The translations under genes and the position numbers were made by a program. Positions 10,284 through 28,784 of a stretch of DNA of 34,184 nt are shown piece by piece. Below the pieces are notes generated by a model that ran no database searches, was not told where the DNA came from, and saw only the letters and a program-made list of their open reading frames with translations. The stretch is from contig JAPYUM010000041.1 in assembly GCA_029940535.1 (NCBI GenBank), positions 1-34,184 on the forward strand. The letters run 5' to 3'. The DNA is from Vicinamibacterales bacterium. GTDB lineage: Bacteria; Acidobacteriota; Vicinamibacteria; Vicinamibacterales; UBA8438. How positions within the stretch are numbered: position 1 is the stretch's first letter; each line of letters starts with the position of its first letter.

Positions 10284-10347
10284 TCGAAGAAGACCGCGGC
10301 GCGCGACAAGGAGTGCCCGCGCAGCCCCGTCTAAGAGAAGGACGACC

Positions 10348-10632
10348 ATGGCAACCAAGATTCTGATTCCGACGCCCCTCCGCGGCTACACCGACCAGCT
10401 CGATGAGGTGGAGGCTGAGGGCGCTACCGTTGGCGAATTGCTCGCGAACCTCACGACGCGGTACGCCGACCTCCGCAAGCATCTGTACGCGGAAGACGGC
10501 ACCCGGCGCAACTTCGTCAACATCTACCTGAACGATGACGACATCCGATATCTCGAGAAGGACCAGACGCCCGTGACCGCGGACGACACCGTGAGCATCA
10601 TTCCCTCCGTGGCGGGTGGAGGATGGTCGTGA
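10348..10632 (+). CDS. cysO: MoaD/ThiS-like sulfur-carrier protein, CysO-like, with C-terminal extension
   Basis: 94-residue beta-grasp protein resembling CysO and MoaD (NFVNIYLNDDDIRYLEKDQT, then DDTVSIIPSVAGGG). Carriers of this type are adenylated and thiocarboxylated on a terminal Gly-Gly. Here the chain does not stop at Gly-Gly but runs Gly-Gly-Gly-Trp-Ser, so two residues, or three if Gly-Gly must be left, would have to be removed before activation; the JAMM peptidase next door is the obvious candidate. ATG 10348 has AGAAGGA upstream with good spacing. The three glycine codons also form the ribosome site of the next gene, which may help explain the odd terminus. Confidence 0.9.
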   Translation: MATKILIPTPLRGYTDQLDEVEAEGATVGELLANLTTRYADLRKHLYAEDGTRRNFVNIYLNDDDIRYLEKDQTPVTADDTVSIIPSVAGGGWS

Positions 10633-20403: not shown

Positions 20404-21216
20404 TCAGCCGGTTCGGCCGCGTGCCGCCAGTCGAGCCAGCAGCTCTGCGACCGCCGCCGGGTCTGGCAATCGGTAGCGGGCGCGCGATGGTCTCGACCCC
20501 ACCATGACGCTGACGCCGCGGTCACCAATCGCGTCGAACGCATGTTCGTCGGTCTGGTCGTCTCCGAGGTAGACCGGGCGGAACGGGGCGCCGTGGCCAC
20601 GCGCGGCATCCGCTTCGATCCAGCGCACGGCGTCACCCTTGTTCCAAGCGATGTTGGGCAGAAGCTCGAAGACGCAGTCACCACGTTGCAGCCGCAGGGT
20701 GCCGGCCTCGAGGGCCGGGGTGGCCAGGTCCCAGAACGCCCGTTCGGCTCGCTCGCGGTCGGCCGGAGTCGCCGCACGTACGTGCAAGGCCACGGCGAGT
20801 CCCTTGTTCTCGACCAGGGTGCCCCGGAGCGGGGCGACCGTCTGGGCGATCAGGGCGCCGAGCCGCTGCAGTTCCTCGGCGCGGGCGCCAAACCCCGGTA
20901 CTTCGAAGCGGGTGTCGGGGGCATCGATCTCCATGCCGTGCAGTCCAGCGTAGTAGAGACCGTCGCCGAGCCCCGTCCGTCGTCGCACGTCGTCCGCCCG
21001 TCGTCCGCTGACAACGCCCACCCTCGTCCGCGGTTGTGCCGCCAGCGTGGAGAGTGTCGTCCGGAGCCCGTCTCCCAGGAACACTGCCTCCGGTTCAGAT
21101 TGGAACTCGCACAGGGTTCCGTCGAAGTCGGTGAGTATCAGGAGCGGCCGGCGGTCTGCACCGATGATGATGTCGGCGAGATCCTCGGTGGTCGCGAACG
21201 GGGGTGCGGAGGTCAC
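20404..21216 (-). CDS. otsB: Trehalose-6-phosphate phosphatase
   Basis: 270-residue HAD-superfamily phosphatase that turns trehalose-6-phosphate into trehalose. Motif I is DFDGTL (Asp30 nucleophile, Asp32), motif II VVSGR, the trehalose-phosphatase mark GLHGMEI at 91-97, ENKGLAVALHVR, the lysine of WNKG (193) and motif IV GDDQTDE (218-224). The open frame extends 80 codons further upstream, but that stretch lies over another gene and has no family match. GTG 21216 overlaps the preceding stop as GTGA. Together with otsA on the other strand it completes the two-step trehalose route. Confidence 0.92.
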   Translation of the reverse strand: MTSAPPFATTEDLADIIIGADRRPLLILTDFDGTLCEFQSEPEAVFLGDGLRTTLSTLAAQPRTRVGVVSGRRADDVRRRTGLGDGLYYAGLHGMEIDAPDTRFEVPGFGARAEELQRLGALIAQTVAPLRGTLVENKGLAVALHVRAATPADRERAERAFWDLATPALEAGTLRLQRGDCVFELLPNIAWNKGDAVRWIEADAARGHGAPFRPVYLGDDQTDEHAFDAIGDRGVSVMVGSRPSRARYRLPDPAAVAELLARLAARGRTG

Positions 21217-21656
21217 CGACTGGCGGTGGGTGAGGCGGCTGGACCACGCAGTGTCGGTGCGCACAGGCTGCTGTCCGACGTCGTGGCCAAGCGGGAGTCG
21301 GACGCAGTCACCGCCAGATTCAACAGATACAGCCGGTAGGCGCCAGGGTCGCGGCCCGGGTTCCCGCAGATCCGCACGCGGTCGCTCGTGGTCAGCGCGC
21401 TGTCGGTCCACCCCTCCTGTTGCAGACGTCTCGCGCCACGCCACTCGAACGCCCACGTGTGCGGGTGGCCTTGACCGTCGCGCACGCGGAGCTGGATCAT
21501 GGAATGCGGGTTACCGAACTGGAACGAGCTGACCTCACCTTCGAGGACGATCGTGCGCTCTTCGTCGTATGTCTCTCCGATGGCGTGGTGGGCCTGAAGC
21601 GGGAAGTGCGTCGCACACACAACGGCTGCAATCAGAACGCCCAAGCGTCGCGTCAT
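21213..21656 (-). CDS. DUF6152-like secreted protein
   Basis: 147-residue exported protein with a signal peptide ending at about LQAHHA. The part HHAIGETYDEERTIVLEGEV followed by FQFGNPHSMIQLRVRD is the hallmark of small periplasmic DUF6152-type proteins, whose function is unknown. The C-terminal 25 residues are Ser/Thr-rich and not part of the family core. ATG 21656 is preceded by AGGGGG with suitable spacing. The stop overlaps the otsB start, so the two genes are transcribed together although no functional link is known. Confidence 0.8.
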   Translation of the reverse strand: MTRRLGVLIAAVVCATHFPLQAHHAIGETYDEERTIVLEGEVSSFQFGNPHSMIQLRVRDGQGHPHTWAFEWRGARRLQQEGWTDSALTTSDRVRICGNPGRDPGAYRLYLLNLAVTASDSRLATTSDSSLCAPTLRGPAASPTASR

Positions 21657-21719
21657 CAGTTTCCCCCTCTCCTCAGGTTCGCCGTCTTCATCATACTGCG
21701 CGGGTCAGCGCGGCCACGC

Positions 21720-21736
21720 CTGAAGATTGTCTGAAG
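21720..21736 (+). promoter_or_regulatory. CTGAAG-N5-CTGAAG box upstream of regulator remnant
   Basis: Two identical CTGAAG hexamers (21720-21725, 21731-21736) are spaced one helical turn (11 bases) apart. Such direct half-sites are typical for OmpR/PhoB-class regulators; the PmrA box CTTAAG-N5-CTTAAG has the same layout. It lies 50 bases before the remnant of an OmpR-class receiver gene. A matching box is at 25605-25621. Confidence 0.55.
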
Positions 21737-21785
21737 TCTGGCCAGGCCGCGCCGCTGGTCGCCCGATCTTCGATAAGCTTGGGAG

Positions 21786-21935
21786 ATGACCTCGCCCCTG
21801 CCGGGGCGCGATGGGCTCGAGGTGCTGGCCGAGTTCCGCCGCCAACAAATCGGGACGCCCGTCGTGGTCCTGACGTTCCGGATCATGCTGCCGACGGTAT
21901 CCGCGTTCGCGGGGGGCACTCCCGCCCCACACTGA
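21786..21935 (+). pseudogene. Response-regulator receiver fragment
   Basis: The 49-residue reading frame contains LPGRDGLEVLAEFRRQ followed by IGTPVVVLTFR. This is the segment directly after the phosphoacceptor Asp of OmpR-class receivers (usually DLMLPGxDGL...TPVLxLTAR). The part before the Asp, the rest of the receiver and the whole DNA-binding domain are missing, and the last 17 residues match nothing. I read it as the remnant of a deleted two-component regulator. It stands directly before a decayed PepSY gene, a frequent arrangement in metal-uptake loci. An expressed short protein is unlikely. Confidence 0.6.
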
Positions 21936-21950
21936 CGAAGAATTCATCCC

Positions 21951-22558
21951 GTGATTGCGTTTCTCGAGCGGCCCCGTTCCGTCTTCCTCCGGCGCGCGCT
22001 GTTCCAGGTGCACCTCTGGGTCGGTGTCCTGTCGGCGCTCTATCTGATTATCGTCTCCGTCACCGGTGCGGCACTGATGTTCCGCATTCACTTGCAACGC
22101 GCGGTGCACCCGGACCTCTTCGTAGAAAGCGTGGGCGATCTGGCCGAGCCCGTGACCGTGCTCGAGAGGGTGCGTGACGCGTACCCGGTCGGGCGGGTTT
22201 CGGGCGTCGACGCGCCGACTACGGATCGACCAACCTACCTGGCCTATGTCACCGCCGGCGACCAGTTATAGACGATTCTTGCCGATCGGGTGTCTGGCGC
22301 GGTGCTGGGCGAGCTACCCGAGCATTCCGTCGTCCGCACCTTGCAAGATCTGCACTTTGACCTGTTGGCCGGGCGCACCGGCCGTGTCGTGAACGGGGTC
22401 GGCGGCTTCTGTCTGTTGCTCCTGTGCCTGACCGGTCTGGTCATCTGGTGGCCCGGTCGGTCGAACTGGCGGAGTGGATTCACGATTGACTGGGCTCGTC
22501 CTCTGGTGGACGCGCGTCGTCACGCCGTGGCGCGACCGCTCGCAGCGCCCGCCCTCCG
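21951..22558 (+). pseudogene. Truncated PepSY-associated membrane protein with in-frame stop
   Basis: The frame opened by GTG 21951 encodes a PepSY-TM-type start (RALFQVHLWVGVLSALYLII, then SVTGAALMFR) and continues to AYVTAGDQL, where TAG at 22269-22271 stops it. Beyond the stop, the same frame carries on with expected family sequence: LGELPEHSVVRTLQDLHFDL, GRVVNGVGGFCLLLLCLTGL and IWWPGRSNWRSGFTIDW. The lesion is therefore a nonsense change, not a frameshift. After about 22500 similarity ends, well short of the usual 350-500 residues, and a convergent gene ends at 22559. PepSY-TM proteins are commonly linked to ferric-siderophore receptors. Readthrough or restart at GTG 22290 could give fragments only. 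Confidence 0.75.
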
Positions 22559-23215
22559 TCAGCCGACCGTGAAGACGACCAGCCCAAATGCCAACAGCCA
22601 CAAGGCGTTCAGGTGAAACACCGGTCGATAGAGCTTCAGGTTGTCGGGGAGCCCCATCGTGAGTGCCATGCCGGCTATCCCGAGGAGACCGCCGAAGCCG
22701 ACTAGCCACACCGGCCAGATCGCTCCCTGCAGCAGGAGTCCGATGACCAACACGACCTGACCGACACCGATGAATACGCGTGAAAAGCGCACCAGGCAGG
22801 TGACATATTCCGTGGTGGCACGAAGTGAGGTGATAAACCCGTCCACGGCCTCATCCGATTGGCCATCCATGTCCAACGAGCCCCACGCCCCAAAGTGGTA
22901 GTAGAAGGCGGCCGCGATCGCCCCCATCATCAAGCCGGTGCCCAACACCGCGACCGCGGGCCACACCAGGATGCGCGACTCTTCCCCCGACACGAGCGTG
23001 GCGAGCGCGACCAAGGCCATGACGGCCACGACGTGACCAAACAGGTGTACGCGATAGAGCCAGATCCACAGGCGCCGACGCTTGAGCACCGCTGGGAAAT
23101 CGGTCGGGACGAAGTAGTCGCCGAGCTTGGCCGGCAACAATATCCAGCCGAGCCACAGCATCGCTGAGGCCGCGAGGAAAAAGCCGCCGGTGACGTTGAC
23201 TTCGAAGTCGCTCAT
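22559..23215 (-). CDS. Multi-pass membrane protein of unknown function
   Basis: 218-residue inner-membrane protein with about six hydrophobic helices (for example GGFFLAASAMLWLGWILLPA, VHLFGHVVAVMALVALATLV, ILVWPAVAVLGTGLMMGAIA and NALWLLAFGLVVFTV). No family recognised. ATG 23215 follows the TonB receptor stop by 22 bases, so both are likely in one transcript; the frame is open back to 23311 but that part overlaps the receptor gene. Position suggests a role with the receptor, which is inference only. Confidence 0.7.
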   Translation of the reverse strand: MSDFEVNVTGGFFLAASAMLWLGWILLPAKLGDYFVPTDFPAVLKRRRLWIWLYRVHLFGHVVAVMALVALATLVSGEESRILVWPAVAVLGTGLMMGAIAAAFYYHFGAWGSLDMDGQSDEAVDGFITSLRATTEYVTCLVRFSRVFIGVGQVVLVIGLLLQGAIWPVWLVGFGGLLGIAGMALTMGLPDNLKLYRPVFHLNALWLLAFGLVVFTVG

Positions 23216-23237
23216 GGCTGCTGTGATGCCGCACCGA

Positions 23238-25487
23238 CTACCGCGTCCCGACAACCCGGACCCCGGCGATGACGCTCCGACCCAACGACGGGAATCCGAA
23301 GGCTTCTTCATAGTCGCGGTCCAGCAGGTTCAGAACCCGGGCGGTGAGATCCACCCCGGTCCAGATCCCGACGCTGCCGCCGAGGTTGACCACGGCGTAG
23401 CCCGGGTTGTCGAAGAAACCGCCGAACGACCCGAACGTGGGGTCCACATCGAAGGTCGAGCTGCGGGTGCCGATCGAGGTGAACGCCGAATAGCGCGGTT
23501 GTATGAACGACAGCTCGACCGAACCCTGGTGGCGTGGGCGCCGGAGCAGCGCGTCGCCGACGGTGAACCCGCCGGGGGCTTCGGACTCTGTCGAGTCCAG
23601 GGCGAGAATCTCGGTGTGGAGCCAGGTGTAGGTGACCCGCGCTTCGAATCCCTGGGGCGTCCGTCCGGTCGCGGCCAGCTCGAGGCCACGGGCTCGAGAG
23701 TTCGACAGATTGTCCGTTCTGAACTGACTGGCGTTCTGGAACGATTGACCCACCGACACGATGAGGTCGTCGTATCGGTTGAAGAACGCGGTGGCCTCGA
23801 CGACGACGCGCCCCCCGGCCACGGCCTGCTCCACCCCGAAGTCCACGCTGCGCGTGCGCTCCGATTTGAGGGCCGGATTGTCGGTGAACGCGATCTCGAA
23901 CGCGCTCGGAGGACGGATACCAGTGCCGGCGCTGACACGGAGCCGGGTCCAGTCCGGGGTGACGCTGGCCGGGCGCAGATACCACCCGACGGACACCTTG
24001 GGATTCGCCGCGACTTCCGTTTCGTCCGAAAACAGCGGACGTCCGAAACCGTCGCCGGGCAGCGCTTCGCGTGTAATACGGTCGCCACGTATACCGGCCG
24101 TCACCGACAGGCTGGAGGTCGGATCGAAACGGAGCTCACCGAAGAAACCGAGCATCTGCCGGTCGATCGGAACTTCCGCAAACGATGAGTCGGTGATGAA
24201 TGTGCTGCTGGCCTGCTCCTGCTGGACGTCGAAGCCGCCGGTGGCGACGATGCCGGGGCGCAGTGTCGCGTCGGTGCGCGCTCGCAGCGTCAGCCGGTTG
24301 GCGTCGGAGACCGACTCGCCGAATGGGCTGGCGAACTCGCTGTCATTGTTCGTGTGGCTGAGCTCGACGCGCTGGTCGACTCGTGATCCGAAACGCTGGT
24401 CCACTCCGACCGAGAACAGACGGCTGTCGTTCGTGCCCCGCGACACAATGTCGATGCCGCCGTAGGTATCGCCCGGGTCGCTGCCCCAGGCCCCCGGAAA
24501 GCCACGCTCGTTGGTGCCATACCGGAACACGGAGCGGATCGTGGTGCCGCGCTCGCCCCGCCACCGGCCGTTCAGTGACATGTCACGACGCAGATACTGG
24601 TCGTTGCTGACCGTCTCACCGGATCTGGTGGTTTCGCCGTCTTGCCCGTCCGTGTCCAGCTGTTCGAACGAGGCGCCCCAGCTGACCTCTCCGGCCGACC
24701 CGGTCGTATTCATGGAGACCCGCGAGGTGCCGAGGGTGCCGCCCTCTATGACACTGCTCAGGCGGATCGGACCACCCTGTTTCGTCACAATCTGCACCAC
24801 GCCGCCAATGGCGTCAGACCCATAGACCGCACTTTGTGGTCCGCGCACCACCTCGATGCGCTCGATGTCGCCGACCGGCAGGTGCGCGAAATCGAACGAG
24901 CCCCCAAACCCGTTGATTCGAACCCCGTCGATCATCACGAGGGTGAAGTCGGACTCGCCGCCGCGGGTGAACAGTGCCGTCGTCCCGCCCCGTCCGCCGA
25001 TGGAGGTCACTCCGAGACCCGGCACCGAGAATCGCAGCGCGTCGGCGACGGTTTCGAACTGCCTGGCGGCGATGTCGTCCCCGGTGACCACCGTCACGCT
25101 GTCGGTCACGCGTGACCTTGGGAGCGCACGGCCCGCCGCGGTCACCACGACCGACTCGCTGACGGCGCTGATCACCAGGGCGATGGTGACGGTTTGGGTG
25201 GCGCCAGACGAGAGCTCGACCGTCGTGGGTGCCGCTCGGAAACCTGGCAGCACCACGGCCAACTCGTACCGTCCGGCCGGGAGATTGCCACTCTGGAATC
25301 GGCCCTGGCCGTCCGTCACCGCGGTGTCGCGGACGGCGCTCTGGTCCGAGATGAGCACCGTGGCGTCCGGCGTCGGGCGCCCATCGGGGTCCACGACGGT
25401 TCCGGCGACCGACCCTGGCTGGGCGAGCGCCGGTCCGACCCCGAACACGGCGATGGCGAGTACAAGCGATGCGAGTGTTCGCTTCAT
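23238..25487 (-). CDS. TonB-dependent outer-membrane receptor, probably corrinoid (BtuB-like)
   Basis: 749-residue receptor. Signal peptide (residues 1 to about 23), then a carboxypeptidase-regulatory-like domain (about 25-105; GSVAGTVVDPDGRPTPDATV), the plug (about 125-235; VMIDGVRINGFGG and IERIEVVRGPQSAVYGSDAI) and a 22-strand barrel to the end. BtuB-type features are the short plug and adjacency to btuF, btuC and btuD, so cobalamin or another corrinoid is the likely ligand; an iron chelate remains possible given the PepSY remnant beyond. The frame is open to 25763 but ATG 25487 starts the signal peptide and has AGAGGA upstream. The C-terminus is not the usual Phe. A CTGAAG box lies about 120 bases ahead. 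Confidence 0.9.
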   Translation of the reverse strand: MKRTLASLVLAIAVFGVGPALAQPGSVAGTVVDPDGRPTPDATVLISDQSAVRDTAVTDGQGRFQSGNLPAGRYELAVVLPGFRAAPTTVELSSGATQTVTIALVISAVSESVVVTAAGRALPRSRVTDSVTVVTGDDIAARQFETVADALRFSVPGLGVTSIGGRGGTTALFTRGGESDFTLVMIDGVRINGFGGSFDFAHLPVGDIERIEVVRGPQSAVYGSDAIGGVVQIVTKQGGPIRLSSVIEGGTLGTSRVSMNTTGSAGEVSWGASFEQLDTDGQDGETTRSGETVSNDQYLRRDMSLNGRWRGERGTTIRSVFRYGTNERGFPGAWGSDPGDTYGGIDIVSRGTNDSRLFSVGVDQRFGSRVDQRVELSHTNNDSEFASPFGESVSDANRLTLRARTDATLRPGIVATGGFDVQQEQASSTFITDSSFAEVPIDRQMLGFFGELRFDPTSSLSVTAGIRGDRITREALPGDGFGRPLFSDETEVAANPKVSVGWYLRPASVTPDWTRLRVSAGTGIRPPSAFEIAFTDNPALKSERTRSVDFGVEQAVAGGRVVVEATAFFNRYDDLIVSVGQSFQNASQFRTDNLSNSRARGLELAATGRTPQGFEARVTYTWLHTEILALDSTESEAPGGFTVGDALLRRPRHQGSVELSFIQPRYSAFTSIGTRSSTFDVDPTFGSFGGFFDNPGYAVVNLGGSVGIWTGVDLTARVLNLLDRDYEEAFGFPSLGRSVIAGVRVVGTR

Positions 25488-25604
25488 GGATGTAGATCCT
25501 CTGGGGTTGTCCGACACCGGCTGGGTCGGCTGCGCCGCTCGCGGTCGAAGCGTCGCAGCTGTGCCGTATCCATCGAGTGTAGACAAGGGTTGGCTCACTC
25601 GGTT

Positions 25605-25630
25605 CTGAAGAGTTTCTGAAGATGTCTTCA
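25605..25630 (-). promoter_or_regulatory. CTGAAG-N5-CTGAAG box upstream of TonB receptor
   Basis: Hexamers CTGAAG at 25605-25610 and 25616-25621 (plus-strand reading) repeat with an 11-base period, as at 21720-21736. The second half-site is also the left arm of a palindrome, TGAAGATGTCTTCA (25617-25630). On the coding (minus) strand a -10-like TACACT follows at 25581-25576. The gap between btuF and the receptor gene (175 bases) holds no gene or cobalamin-riboswitch motif, so the receptor may be controlled here separately from btuDCF. Confidence 0.55.
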
Positions 25631-25662: not shown

Positions 25663-26550
25663 TCAAAACGCGTCCGGATGCAGCGCGTGTGCGATCGCCT
25701 CGGTGGCGTCCGCCATGCGCGGTCCAGGTTGTACGAACTGGTTGCCAAGTAGCAGATGCACACGGCTATTCCGGACCGCCGGCACCGACGACAGGCGGTC
25801 CCAGACCGCGACCTCCGCCGCTTGGGTGTCTTCGGTCACCCGGTCGTCGTAGGTCAGTTCCACGATGACCTCCGGGGCTGCGGTCAGAATCGCTTCCGAG
25901 CTGAGCTGGATCGATTCGCGTGACACGTGCTCGAACACATTCCGTCCGCCCGCGGCCTCGAGCATGTCGTGGAGGAACCCGGTGCCGCCGCTGGCATAGA
26001 TGTTCCCGAGCGAGCCCGGCTGGCGGCCAAAGACCAGCAGTACGCGTGGTCGGTCACGACCCTCGAGCCGGGTCCGCAGATCTACGAGCTGCGTGTCGAT
26101 GGCGCTCGCGAGGTGGGTCGCCTCTCTCACTCGGCCGATGCGAGCACCTAGTTGGCGGATGACAGAGAGGGTGTCGTCGATGCCGCCATGCGCATACGTG
26201 AACGTGTCGATCCCGGCGCGTGTGACCTGTGCGAGCTGATCCTGCTGGCTCCCGTAGAAGATGATCAGATCGGGGCGGAGGGCGAAGATCCGCTCCATGT
26301 CGGGGTCCAGCAGCCCCCCCACGCGGGTGCGGGTCGCGACCTCCGCGGGATGCTTGTCGAACGTGCCGACGCCGACGACTTCGTCCCCGGCCCCGATGGC
26401 AAACAGCGCTTCGGTGAGGGCCGGAACGACCGAGATGATCCGAGCCGGGCGCTCCTGCGCCCGCGGACGCACTTGCGCACGGGGAATCACCGCGACGGTC
26501 AGCAGCAAGGTGGCGACCAACGCCGTCGTGTGTCGAGTCACGAGTCTCAT
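25663..26550 (-). CDS. btuF: Cobalamin ABC transporter, periplasmic binding protein
   Basis: 295-residue helical-backbone binding protein of the BtuF/FhuD class with a signal peptide (about residues 1-26). Family marks: RIISVVPALTEALFAIGAGD, VGGLLDPDMERIFALRPDLI and a C-terminal lobe with ASGGTGFLHDMLEAAGG and RNVFEHVSRESIQLSSEAIL. It should deliver corrinoid to BtuCD. ATG 26550 overlaps the btuC stop as ATGA. The longer open frame (to 27486) runs over btuC in the wrong frame and is not part of this gene. Confidence 0.9.
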   Translation of the reverse strand: MRLVTRHTTALVATLLLTVAVIPRAQVRPRAQERPARIISVVPALTEALFAIGAGDEVVGVGTFDKHPAEVATRTRVGGLLDPDMERIFALRPDLIIFYGSQQDQLAQVTRAGIDTFTYAHGGIDDTLSVIRQLGARIGRVREATHLASAIDTQLVDLRTRLEGRDRPRVLLVFGRQPGSLGNIYASGGTGFLHDMLEAAGGRNVFEHVSRESIQLSSEAILTAAPEVIVELTYDDRVTEDTQAAEVAVWDRLSSVPAVRNSRVHLLLGNQFVQPGPRMADATEAIAHALHPDAF

Positions 26551-27596
26551 CGGTTGCGCACCAGAAGCCAGAGGAAAAAGGGTCCGCCGAGCATGGCCGT
26601 GATCACCCCGACCGGCAGTTCCATTGGTGACAGCACGGTTCTGGCGGCCACGTCGCATACCACCAGAAACGCGGCGCCCAGACCGATCGAGGCCGGTAAC
26701 ACCAGTCGGTGGTCCGCGCCGACCAGCAGCCGGACCAGATGCGGGACGATGATGCCGATGAAACCGATCGGTCCTCCGACGGCCACCGCCGCGCCGGTGG
26801 CGAGTGACGCGCTGAGAAACGCGACCCGCTGGGTGCGCAGCACGTCGATGCCTCGCACCGCGGCACTGTCGGCCCCCAGCGTCAGCAGGTTCAGCGCGCG
26901 CGGCAGCCGGGCGAAGGCGACGAACGCCAGGCCCATCGGCCCGAGTGCCCAAACGAGGGGGCGGTAGCTGCCGACGTCCAGATTGCCCATGACCCAGCGC
27001 ACGGACTGCAGGGTTTGGGACGGGTCGGCGAGGTATTGGACGAACAGGATGATGGCGGAGAACAGCGAGTTGAGGGTGACCCCCGCGAGCAGCAACACGA
27101 GTGTCGACAATCCCTGTCGGCGCATGGTCGCCAGGAAATACACGATCGCCAGCGCGCCGAGCGCACCGGCGAAACTGGCCACCGGTACCGCGGCCGACCC
27201 CAGCAGGGTGAGCGGGACACCGAGCGTGATGACGAGCATGGCGCCCAGCGAGGCGCCGGCTGAGACGCCCAGAGTGAAGGGCGTGGCCAGCGGGTTCCGC
27301 AACAGCGCCTGCAGCACCACGCCGGCGGCGGCCAGCGACCCGCCGACCAACGCCCCGGCGAAGGCGCGGGGCAGCCGGGCAATGAAGAAGATTTGGGCGT
27401 CGACGTTCTGACCGAACGGAATGGTCGTATCGAACACCTGCCGCAGGCTGATCGTCGTCGGACCGACGAGCGGAGCCCCGATGCACGCCGCCACCGCCAG
27501 CGCCCCGAAGCCGACCTGCACGAGCCAGATGCGGCGGCGCAGATCACCAGCCGAGACGGGGTGCAGGGCCGGCAAGGTCGCGGTAGCTTCTCGCAT
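26547..27596 (-). CDS. btuC: Cobalamin ABC transporter, permease (FecCD family)
   Basis: 349-residue permease with about ten membrane helices. FecCD marks: RLPRAFAGALVGGSLAAAGV, LLRNPLATPFTLGVSAGASL (the region following the coupling segments), VAVGGPIGFIGIIVPHLVRL and ELPVGVITAMLGGPFFLWLL. Full family length. It starts 12 bases after the btuD stop and overlaps btuF by four bases, so all three are one operon under the riboswitch. Confidence 0.92.
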   Translation of the reverse strand: MREATATLPALHPVSAGDLRRRIWLVQVGFGALAVAACIGAPLVGPTTISLRQVFDTTIPFGQNVDAQIFFIARLPRAFAGALVGGSLAAAGVVLQALLRNPLATPFTLGVSAGASLGAMLVITLGVPLTLLGSAAVPVASFAGALGALAIVYFLATMRRQGLSTLVLLLAGVTLNSLFSAIILFVQYLADPSQTLQSVRWVMGNLDVGSYRPLVWALGPMGLAFVAFARLPRALNLLTLGADSAAVRGIDVLRTQRVAFLSASLATGAAVAVGGPIGFIGIIVPHLVRLLVGADHRLVLPASIGLGAAFLVVCDVAARTVLSPMELPVGVITAMLGGPFFLWLLVRNR

Positions 27597-27608: not shown

Positions 27609-28445
27609 TTACAGCCTGGCCAGCGGCACCACGGTCAGGTGCTGAGTGGTCTCGTGCCGATGCACGTCTGCCTCGACGTCGTAGACGGCGCCGATGGTGT
27701 CCGGTGTCAGCACCTCGTCGGTGGGTCCCGACGCCACGACCCGACCGTCGCGAAGCAGCACCAGGTCGCGACACAGCCCGGCGGCGAAGTTCAGGTCATG
27801 CGTGCAGACCACGGCGGTGGTCCGATACGTCCGGTTCAGTTCCGCGATCAGCGTCGCGGTTGCGAGCTGGAACGAGAGGTCGAGCGACGACGTTGGTTCG
27901 TCGAGGAGCAACACGCGGGTGGGGTTCGCGTCCTCGTCCGGCGCGATGTCCTGCCCGTCCGATGCGCCCGGTACGCGTTCGAACTGGGCGAGCGCGCTGG
28001 CCATCACGACCCGTTGCTTTTCACCCCCGCTCAGGGTGCGGAATGTCCGTTGCTCGAGGTGCGCCGTGCCGGTTGCGGCCAGTGTCCGACGGGCGATCTC
28101 GAGATCGGCGGGGCCTTCCAACTCGAACGTCTGCAGATGGGGGTAGCGGCCCATCAACACGATTTCGAGCACGCTGTAGTCGAAGGCCAGCTCCGTTTCC
28201 TGCGGGACGACGGCGATTCGCCGCGCGAGCATCCGCCGGTCCATGGCGGTGATGTCCAGGTCGTCGAGAGTGATGTGACCGGTCGCGGGGGGCAGGAGCC
28301 CGGCGAGGAGCTTCAGGAGGGTCGTCTTGCCCGACCCGTTCGGGCCGAGCACGCCCACCAGTCCCCCGGTCGGGACCGACACGTCGATATCGTGAAGGAC
28401 CGGTCGCGCGTCGTAACTGAACGAGACGTGCTCAGCGTGCAGCAC
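27609..28445 (-). CDS. btuD: Cobalamin ABC transporter, ATP-binding protein
   Basis: 278-residue ABC ATPase. Walker A GPNGSGKTTLLK, Q-loop VPQETEL, signature LSGGEKQRV, Walker B VLLLDEPTSSLD and switch His in CTHDLNFA. A 20-odd-residue insertion (VPGASDGQDIAPDEDANPTR) sits between signature and Walker B, where most homologues are direct. GTG 28445 has GGGAG six bases upstream and puts the first strand (HAEHVSFSYD) at the N-terminus as usual. The frame remains open through the riboswitch to 28712 but that part is not coding. First gene after the cobalamin riboswitch. Confidence 0.92.
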   Translation of the reverse strand: MLHAEHVSFSYDARPVLHDIDVSVPTGGLVGVLGPNGSGKTTLLKLLAGLLPPATGHITLDDLDITAMDRRMLARRIAVVPQETELAFDYSVLEIVLMGRYPHLQTFELEGPADLEIARRTLAATGTAHLEQRTFRTLSGGEKQRVVMASALAQFERVPGASDGQDIAPDEDANPTRVLLLDEPTSSLDLSFQLATATLIAELNRTYRTTAVVCTHDLNFAAGLCRDLVLLRDGRVVASGPTDEVLTPDTIGAVYDVEADVHRHETTQHLTVVPLARL

Positions 28446-28506
28446 GCCCGGCTCCCGCGTCGCGCGTGGGGTCGAGACCGGGTTCTGCGAACGGAATGGG
28501 TTGCAT
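28432..28506 (-). other. Possible 24-codon leader ORF between riboswitch and btuD
   Basis: ATG 28506 has AAAGGA five bases upstream, the best ribosome site in this leader. The frame runs 24 codons (starting MQPIPFAEPG) and stops at 28432, inside btuD, spanning the btuD GTG in another frame. It could couple or gate btuD translation. Whether it is translated is unknown; no homologue is recognised. Confidence 0.35.
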
Positions 28507-28558: not shown

Positions 28559-28569
28559 AAAAGGACGAG

Positions 28570-28775
28570 CCTGATTGGCCAGGTTTCCTGACTCGTGGAT
28601 CATCGCGGAACGACGACGCCTTCCCACATCCCAGGACGCAGTGGCTGGCGACTCGTCGGGATCGGTTTTCACCGATGCGACTCGTGCGCCGGATTGTCGC
28701 TCCGCTCCCCACTCACAGTGGCGGGACCGTGTGGGATTCGCACCCACTTCCCTTGACCATTCAGGGAGCGTCGAA
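28570..28775 (-). ncRNA. Cobalamin riboswitch (adenosylcobalamin-type aptamer)
   Basis: On the minus strand the conserved core reads GGGAAGTGGGTGCGAATCCC, then ACACGGTCCCGCCACTGTGA, and about 130 bases later the B12 box GAGTCAGGAAACCTGGCC (28577-28594). GAAAACCGATCC and the GCCAGCCACTG segment lie between, as in the peripheral stems. Ends are approximate. It precedes btuD, btuC and btuF and should lower their expression when cobalamin is plentiful. The T-loop-like GGGTGCGAATCCC is part of the aptamer, not a tRNA. Confidence 0.93.
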
Positions 28776-28784
28776 CTAAGACCA

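Follow-up and report, generated by a model that had tools for sequence, protein, structure and literature searches.

Predicted OmpR-class activator sites at an uptake locus of a Vicinamibacterales bacterium, probably orphaned by loss of their regulator

The boxes of the OmpR-class regulators PhoB and PhoP are direct repeats with a period of about 11 bp, which lie beside the -35 element or replace it; their half-site sequences and regulons differ from those presented here. The PmrA (BasR) box of enterobacteria, CTTAAG-N5-xTTAAT in Salmonella, consists of head-to-tail hexamers 5 bp apart and is bound by an OmpR-class dimer (PMC3973317). AgrR of Cupriavidus metallidurans, an OmpR-family regulator of metal resistance, binds an inverted repeat of 6-4-6 (PMC7380067), whereas the box examined here is a direct repeat of 6-5-6. 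A previous inspection of the DNA by a model (the sequence-only reading) had recognized the 11-bp direct-repeat form of OmpR-class regulators, which is borne out by the identical 6-5-6 layout of the PmrA box. The half-sites differ, being CTTCAG/CTGAAG and not of the CTTAAG type of the PmrA regulon. In general kind the operator-promoter is a known one; neither its sequence nor its regulon was found described in the literature searched (box sequence, DUF6152, and regulation in Vicinamibacter). A match to CTGAAG in that literature was a sequencing adapter tag and was discarded.

The window, the whole 34,184-nucleotide stretch that was analyzed, is contig C33 of the genome under study (G000; 4,832,326 bases, 96.85% complete). 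Its relevant features are collected in Table 1. When both strands of the window were searched, CTGAAG-N5-CTGAAG matched exactly at two positions only, those of the identical repeats noticed by the sequence-only reading, and no match occurred in 100 shuffles of the window, in keeping with its estimate of far fewer than one by chance. A scan of the whole genome returned the same two sites, upstream of a DUF6152 gene and of a TonB-dependent receptor gene, and none for the reversed pattern. When each hexamer could begin with Y and one mismatch was tolerated, 32 matches were obtained against 26 for the reversed controls; as this is no excess, a wider regulon is not claimed for the strain. Both boxes are outside real genes. 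From box 1 to the start codon of the DUF6152 gene downstream the distance is 63 bp; from box 2, which lies between btuF and the receptor gene, to the start codon of the TonB receptor downstream it is 117 bp.

Table 1. Positions in the window of the boxes, promoter elements and neighboring genes
Feature	Position	Strand	Basis
DUF6152 protein, 147 aa, intact, box 1 target	21213..21656	-	PF19649, E 2.7e-20
-10-like element TATGAT of the DUF6152 gene, 24 nt from box 1	21690..21695	-	TATGAT/TATCAT kept at 22-24 nt in relatives
Predicted operator box 1, CTTCAGACAATCTTCAG on the minus strand	21720..21736	-	window and genome pattern search
Response-regulator remnant, 49 codons: start and LPGRDGLEVLAEFRRQQIGTPVVVLT segment of the receiver	21786..21935	+	alignment to the intact L096 regulator
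PepSY_TM pseudogene with an in-frame TAG (22269-22271), shorter than L098 by about 0.5 kb	21951..22541	+	PF03929 in two pieces
Unassigned multi-pass membrane protein, 218 aa, intact	22559..23215	-	no family match; flanked by the PepSY pseudogene and the TonB receptor
TonB-dependent receptor, 749 aa, intact, BtuB-like, box 2 target	23238..25487	-	best NCBIfam TIGR01779
-10-like element TACACT, 23 nt from box 2	25576..25581	-	identical in L032
Predicted operator box 2, CTTCAGAAACTCTTCAG on the minus strand	25605..25621	-	window and genome pattern search
BtuF-like periplasmic binding protein	25663..26514	-	PF01497, E 6e-29
BtuC/FecCD-type permease	26547..27596	-	BtuC as best NCBIfam family (223 bits, under the cut-off)
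ABC transporter ATPase (BtuD/FecE type)	27609..28448	-	start inferred from where homology sets in, near residue 90 of the 367-aa ORF
Cobalamin riboswitch ahead of btuD-btuC-btuF	28560..28776	-	RF00174, 69.2 bits, gathering 31.5

Read on the minus strand, the two sites are instances of one composite promoter, CTTCAG-N5-CTTCAG-N23/24-TAnnnT. Among 35 non-coding boxes of the same family of bacteria, 22 have TAnnnT 21-24 nt downstream of the repeat, where about one was expected; other offsets have about 0.25 such boxes each. The -35 position of the TonB-receptor promoter reads AACCGA, and the box ends where a -35 element would begin, so that an activator adjoining the polymerase is the natural reading. 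A direct repeat with an 11-bp period upstream of a promoter is the arrangement of OmpR-class operators. Box 1 has the same polarity as box 2, toward a minus-strand gene. The sequence-only reading had correctly set box 2 ahead of the TonB receptor; box 1, which it had set ahead of the response-regulator remnant, faces the divergent DUF6152 gene, which it had not mentioned, and the remnant lies on the opposite side. A role of box 1 primarily in serving the regulator was dropped given the conserved -10 on the DUF6152 side. At two boxes (L102 at 6031 and L104 at 6021), a -10-like TAGCGT is found about 43 nt away, a distance longer by two helical turns, upstream of a TonB receptor; a second promoter geometry is possible there. 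In L104, a 101-aa ORF separates this box from the receptor gene.

The exact box is present in 22 of the 28 genomes of the family, with counts far above the reversed-pattern control, and many family sites have a third hexamer copy at the same 11-bp period. The regions around the family boxes were fetched and their genes called, the DUF6152 genes being placed by tblastn. Scattering within coding sequence or want of conservation in relatives would have spoken against the sequence-only reading, and neither applies: only a minority of the family matches, 11 of 46, are inside coding sequence, and the composite site with its first C left free occurs 49 times in the 28 family genomes, against none for the reversed pattern. 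Across the order, the strict pattern occurs 43 times in 27 of 162 genomes, again against none, these counts coming from related genomes that are not independent. Beyond the order, four matches in the sampled phylum against four for the control amount to background; two of the four are close together in G166. Spacer bases outside the search pattern are also conserved, position 8 being A in 51 of 64 sites and position 10 being T in 52 of them, and both window sites carry these two bases. The nearest named relatives are Acidobacteria metagenome-assembled genomes such as PAUN01000077.1 (locus L032) and a Vicinamibacterales one (L034). Box 1 is kept at the orthologous place in L095, L096, L085, and L088, and box 2 in L032 (with one base N) and L033.

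The non-coding family boxes precede TonB receptors, PepSY membrane proteins, and a CusA/CzcA-type pump, and occur at loci of OmpR-class regulators with their kinases. Directly downstream of composite sites are genes for TonB receptors, DUF6152, PepSY_TM, CusA/CzcA (in one genome), di-haem cytochrome c peroxidase, and DUF4198, to which may be added a cytochrome c'-like protein (weak match) and DUF5666 (just below cut-off); in L166 the site points at the regulator gene itself. These targets are functionally coherent. The predicted TonB/PepSY/DUF6152 regulon differs from that of PmrA, which concerns lipid A modification, and would bring proteins of unknown function (DUF6152, DUF5666, and DUF4198) together with TonB and PepSY genes. 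DUF6152 orthologues are downstream of a box in seven family loci (L085, L088, L095, L096, L103, L110, and L112). The fullest layout is that of L085: riboswitch, btuD, btuC, btuF, boxes, TonB receptor, PepSY, kinase, regulator, box, and divergent DUF6152.

In relatives, the box adjoins intact response-regulator and kinase genes (L085, L088, L095, L096, and L112) or a response-regulator gene (L110). The comparison proposed by the sequence-only reading with relatives in which the regulator is complete thus finds the box conserved, and the intact OmpR-class gene with a sensor beside PepSY genes that it had suggested seeking is found there. The L095 regulator consists of a PF00072 receiver and a PF00486 Trans_reg_C winged helix; a predicted cognate regulator with both domains is therefore encoded nearby in relatives. 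Its best-scoring family is TIGR01387 (CopR/CusR/SilR), with 215.1 bits against a curated cut-off of 279.2, and that of the kinase is TIGR01386 (255.7 bits, cut-off 292.55). The CopR/CusR/SilR/CztR systems thus resemble this one most in regulator and kinase, and share with it a CusA/CzcA pump among the targets in a single genome; both scores are nevertheless below the cut-offs, so membership in TIGR01387 is not assigned. The PmrA model NF007928 ranks third, its 179.9 bits being far from the cut-off of 330 for that family. As the best families are heavy-metal ones and the scores are below the cut-offs, a metal signal, possibly copper or iron, is only a guess.

Regulator and site occur together. 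Across the order, the regulator is encoded in 25 of the 27 genomes with a composite site and in 51 of the 135 without one (Fisher p 8e-8, the true significance being lowered by genome relatedness). Outside the family, it is found (E<=1e-65) in all 12 genomes with a strict site, versus 54 of 134 overall. The only site carriers without regulator in the order are G002, which is 71% complete, and the genome under study. Conversely, 51 of the 76 genomes of the order that encode the regulator, or about two thirds, have no exact composite site; the operator may have drifted in these genomes, or the exact pattern may be too strict.

The strain has lost this regulator almost entirely, as the sequence-only reading had perceived: a 49-codon remnant persists and the kinase is gone. 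Aligned to the intact L096 regulator, the remnant consists of two pieces with 82% and 84% nucleotide identity, the intervening stretch being deleted. This first deletion, of about 0.2 kb, spans a shared CTGCC. After the second piece, the alignment jumps by about 2.5 kb to the PepSY start, which takes out the remaining part of the regulator, the kinase, and one more gene, in L096 equipped with a box of its own. No regulator orthologue was found elsewhere in the 96.85% complete assembly (E<=1e-40), although a copy may be on a missing contig. The regulator is absent from the sister genome G019 as well, and a Trans_reg_C search returned one protein in each of the two. The sister locus L032 is without regulator, kinase, PepSY, and box 1; its box 2, in which one base is unread, and the associated -10 are unchanged from the window. 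Where PepSY, kinase, and regulator are missing, L032 has a second cobalamin riboswitch and further sequence (10297-10505).

The reading to which a probability of roughly 85% is given is that the boxes are OmpR-class activator sites, predicted from their sequence and setting, which have been orphaned in this strain by the loss of regulator and kinase. In relatives, an OmpR-class response regulator, encoded beside box 1 together with a heavy-metal-type sensor kinase, would act as an activator through CTTCAG-N5-CTTCAG boxes; under its control would be TonB receptors, DUF6152, membrane proteins of the PepSY type, cytochrome-type proteins of the envelope, and probably the regulator gene itself. In the strain under study, two deletions have taken away the greater part of the regulator and the whole kinase, and PepSY is broken too. 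Boxes 1 (DUF6152) and 2 (TonB receptor) would therefore be orphan operators. They may be relics, silent or weak, or may now serve as promoters that dispense with their activator, and the two switches that remain appear to have nothing to work them. The loss of the regulator bears on the present function of the boxes, not on the class of the site.

It is unlikely that the boxes are still worked here by the remaining OmpR-class protein or by a regulator of another class. Such use would agree with the fact that box 2 has the same readable hexamer bases and the same -10 in this strain and in L032, both devoid of regulator, and with the purifying selection on the TonB receptor (dN 0.057, dS 0.461, dN/dS about 0.12 versus L032). 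However, box 1 is deleted in L032, and neutral retention of 11 or 12 bases is unsurprising at the divergence between the two. The genome encodes a single other OmpR-class protein (G000:C120, L155), which shares 42% identity with the query regulator and differs from it in the recognition helix, TRTIDNFIARLRRYLE versus TTLDNVIDVHISRLRRKID; service by a paralogue is thereby made unlikely. Of the two fates envisaged by the sequence-only reading, relics or service by a paralogue, the former, as relic or orphan, is thus the better half.

That the box is instead a repressor site, or the site of a factor outside the OmpR class with the two-component genes as mere passengers, is very improbable. Binding by the regulator is a prediction, and the spacing of about 43 nt in L102 and L104 is a second geometry; yet the upstream position abutting the -35 region without a -35 hexamer fits activation, direct repeats of 11 bp are typical of OmpR-class dimers, and the site co-occurs with the regulator. 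An accidental origin from two CTGAAG at fixed spacing (a common Leu-Lys codon pair), to which the coding matches and some tandem runs that may be species-specific repeats (L108, L111, and L115) could be ascribed, is practically nil, as it is refuted by the expectation of zero in the window, the uniqueness in the genome, the strong excess of composite sites over reversed controls, and the conserved -10 geometry and targets.

The TonB receptor is below the cut-off of the vitamin B12 receptor BtuB family, TIGR01779 (197.6 bits, cut-off 599.7), and is not classed as BtuB; yet this is its best family, and its gene follows riboswitch-btuD-btuC-btuF. The locus is therefore best read as one of corrinoid uptake in which the receptor has a second promoter under separate control. 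The cobalamin riboswitch is also present in six related loci (L032, L034, L036, L085, L087, and L089). The 218-aa membrane protein has no Pfam or NCBIfam match and falls in an alignment gap at the corresponding place of L098.

The composite site offers a precise, testable operator-promoter for an uncharacterized two-component system of a large and mostly uncultured group of Acidobacteriota, and sister strains with and without regulator give a chance to follow the fate of orphaned binding sites. A further reading, of rather low probability, is an undescribed envelope regulon of the Vicinamibacterales, which a two-component system of the heavy-metal type would run through a PmrA-like direct-repeat box, and in which one lineage lost the regulator and kept at least one operator under selection. 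If so, the retained site would be a constitutive promoter or have been taken over by another factor, and the B12-type uptake locus would be a natural example of a rewired regulon.

A trehalose-phosphatase-like sequence (20404-21212; DFDGTL motif, recognized by eye) comes immediately after the DUF6152 gene, and in L085, too, a longer gene of the same orientation lies downstream of DUF6152; the DUF6152 and trehalose-phosphatase-like genes may be co-transcribed. In G006-G008 (L108, L111, and L115), tandem boxes of four copies were not counted among the promoters, as there is no -10 at the expected place. There, four hexamers at the 11-bp period lie between two genes, ahead of an alpha/beta hydrolase, with a polarity reversed from the usual one.
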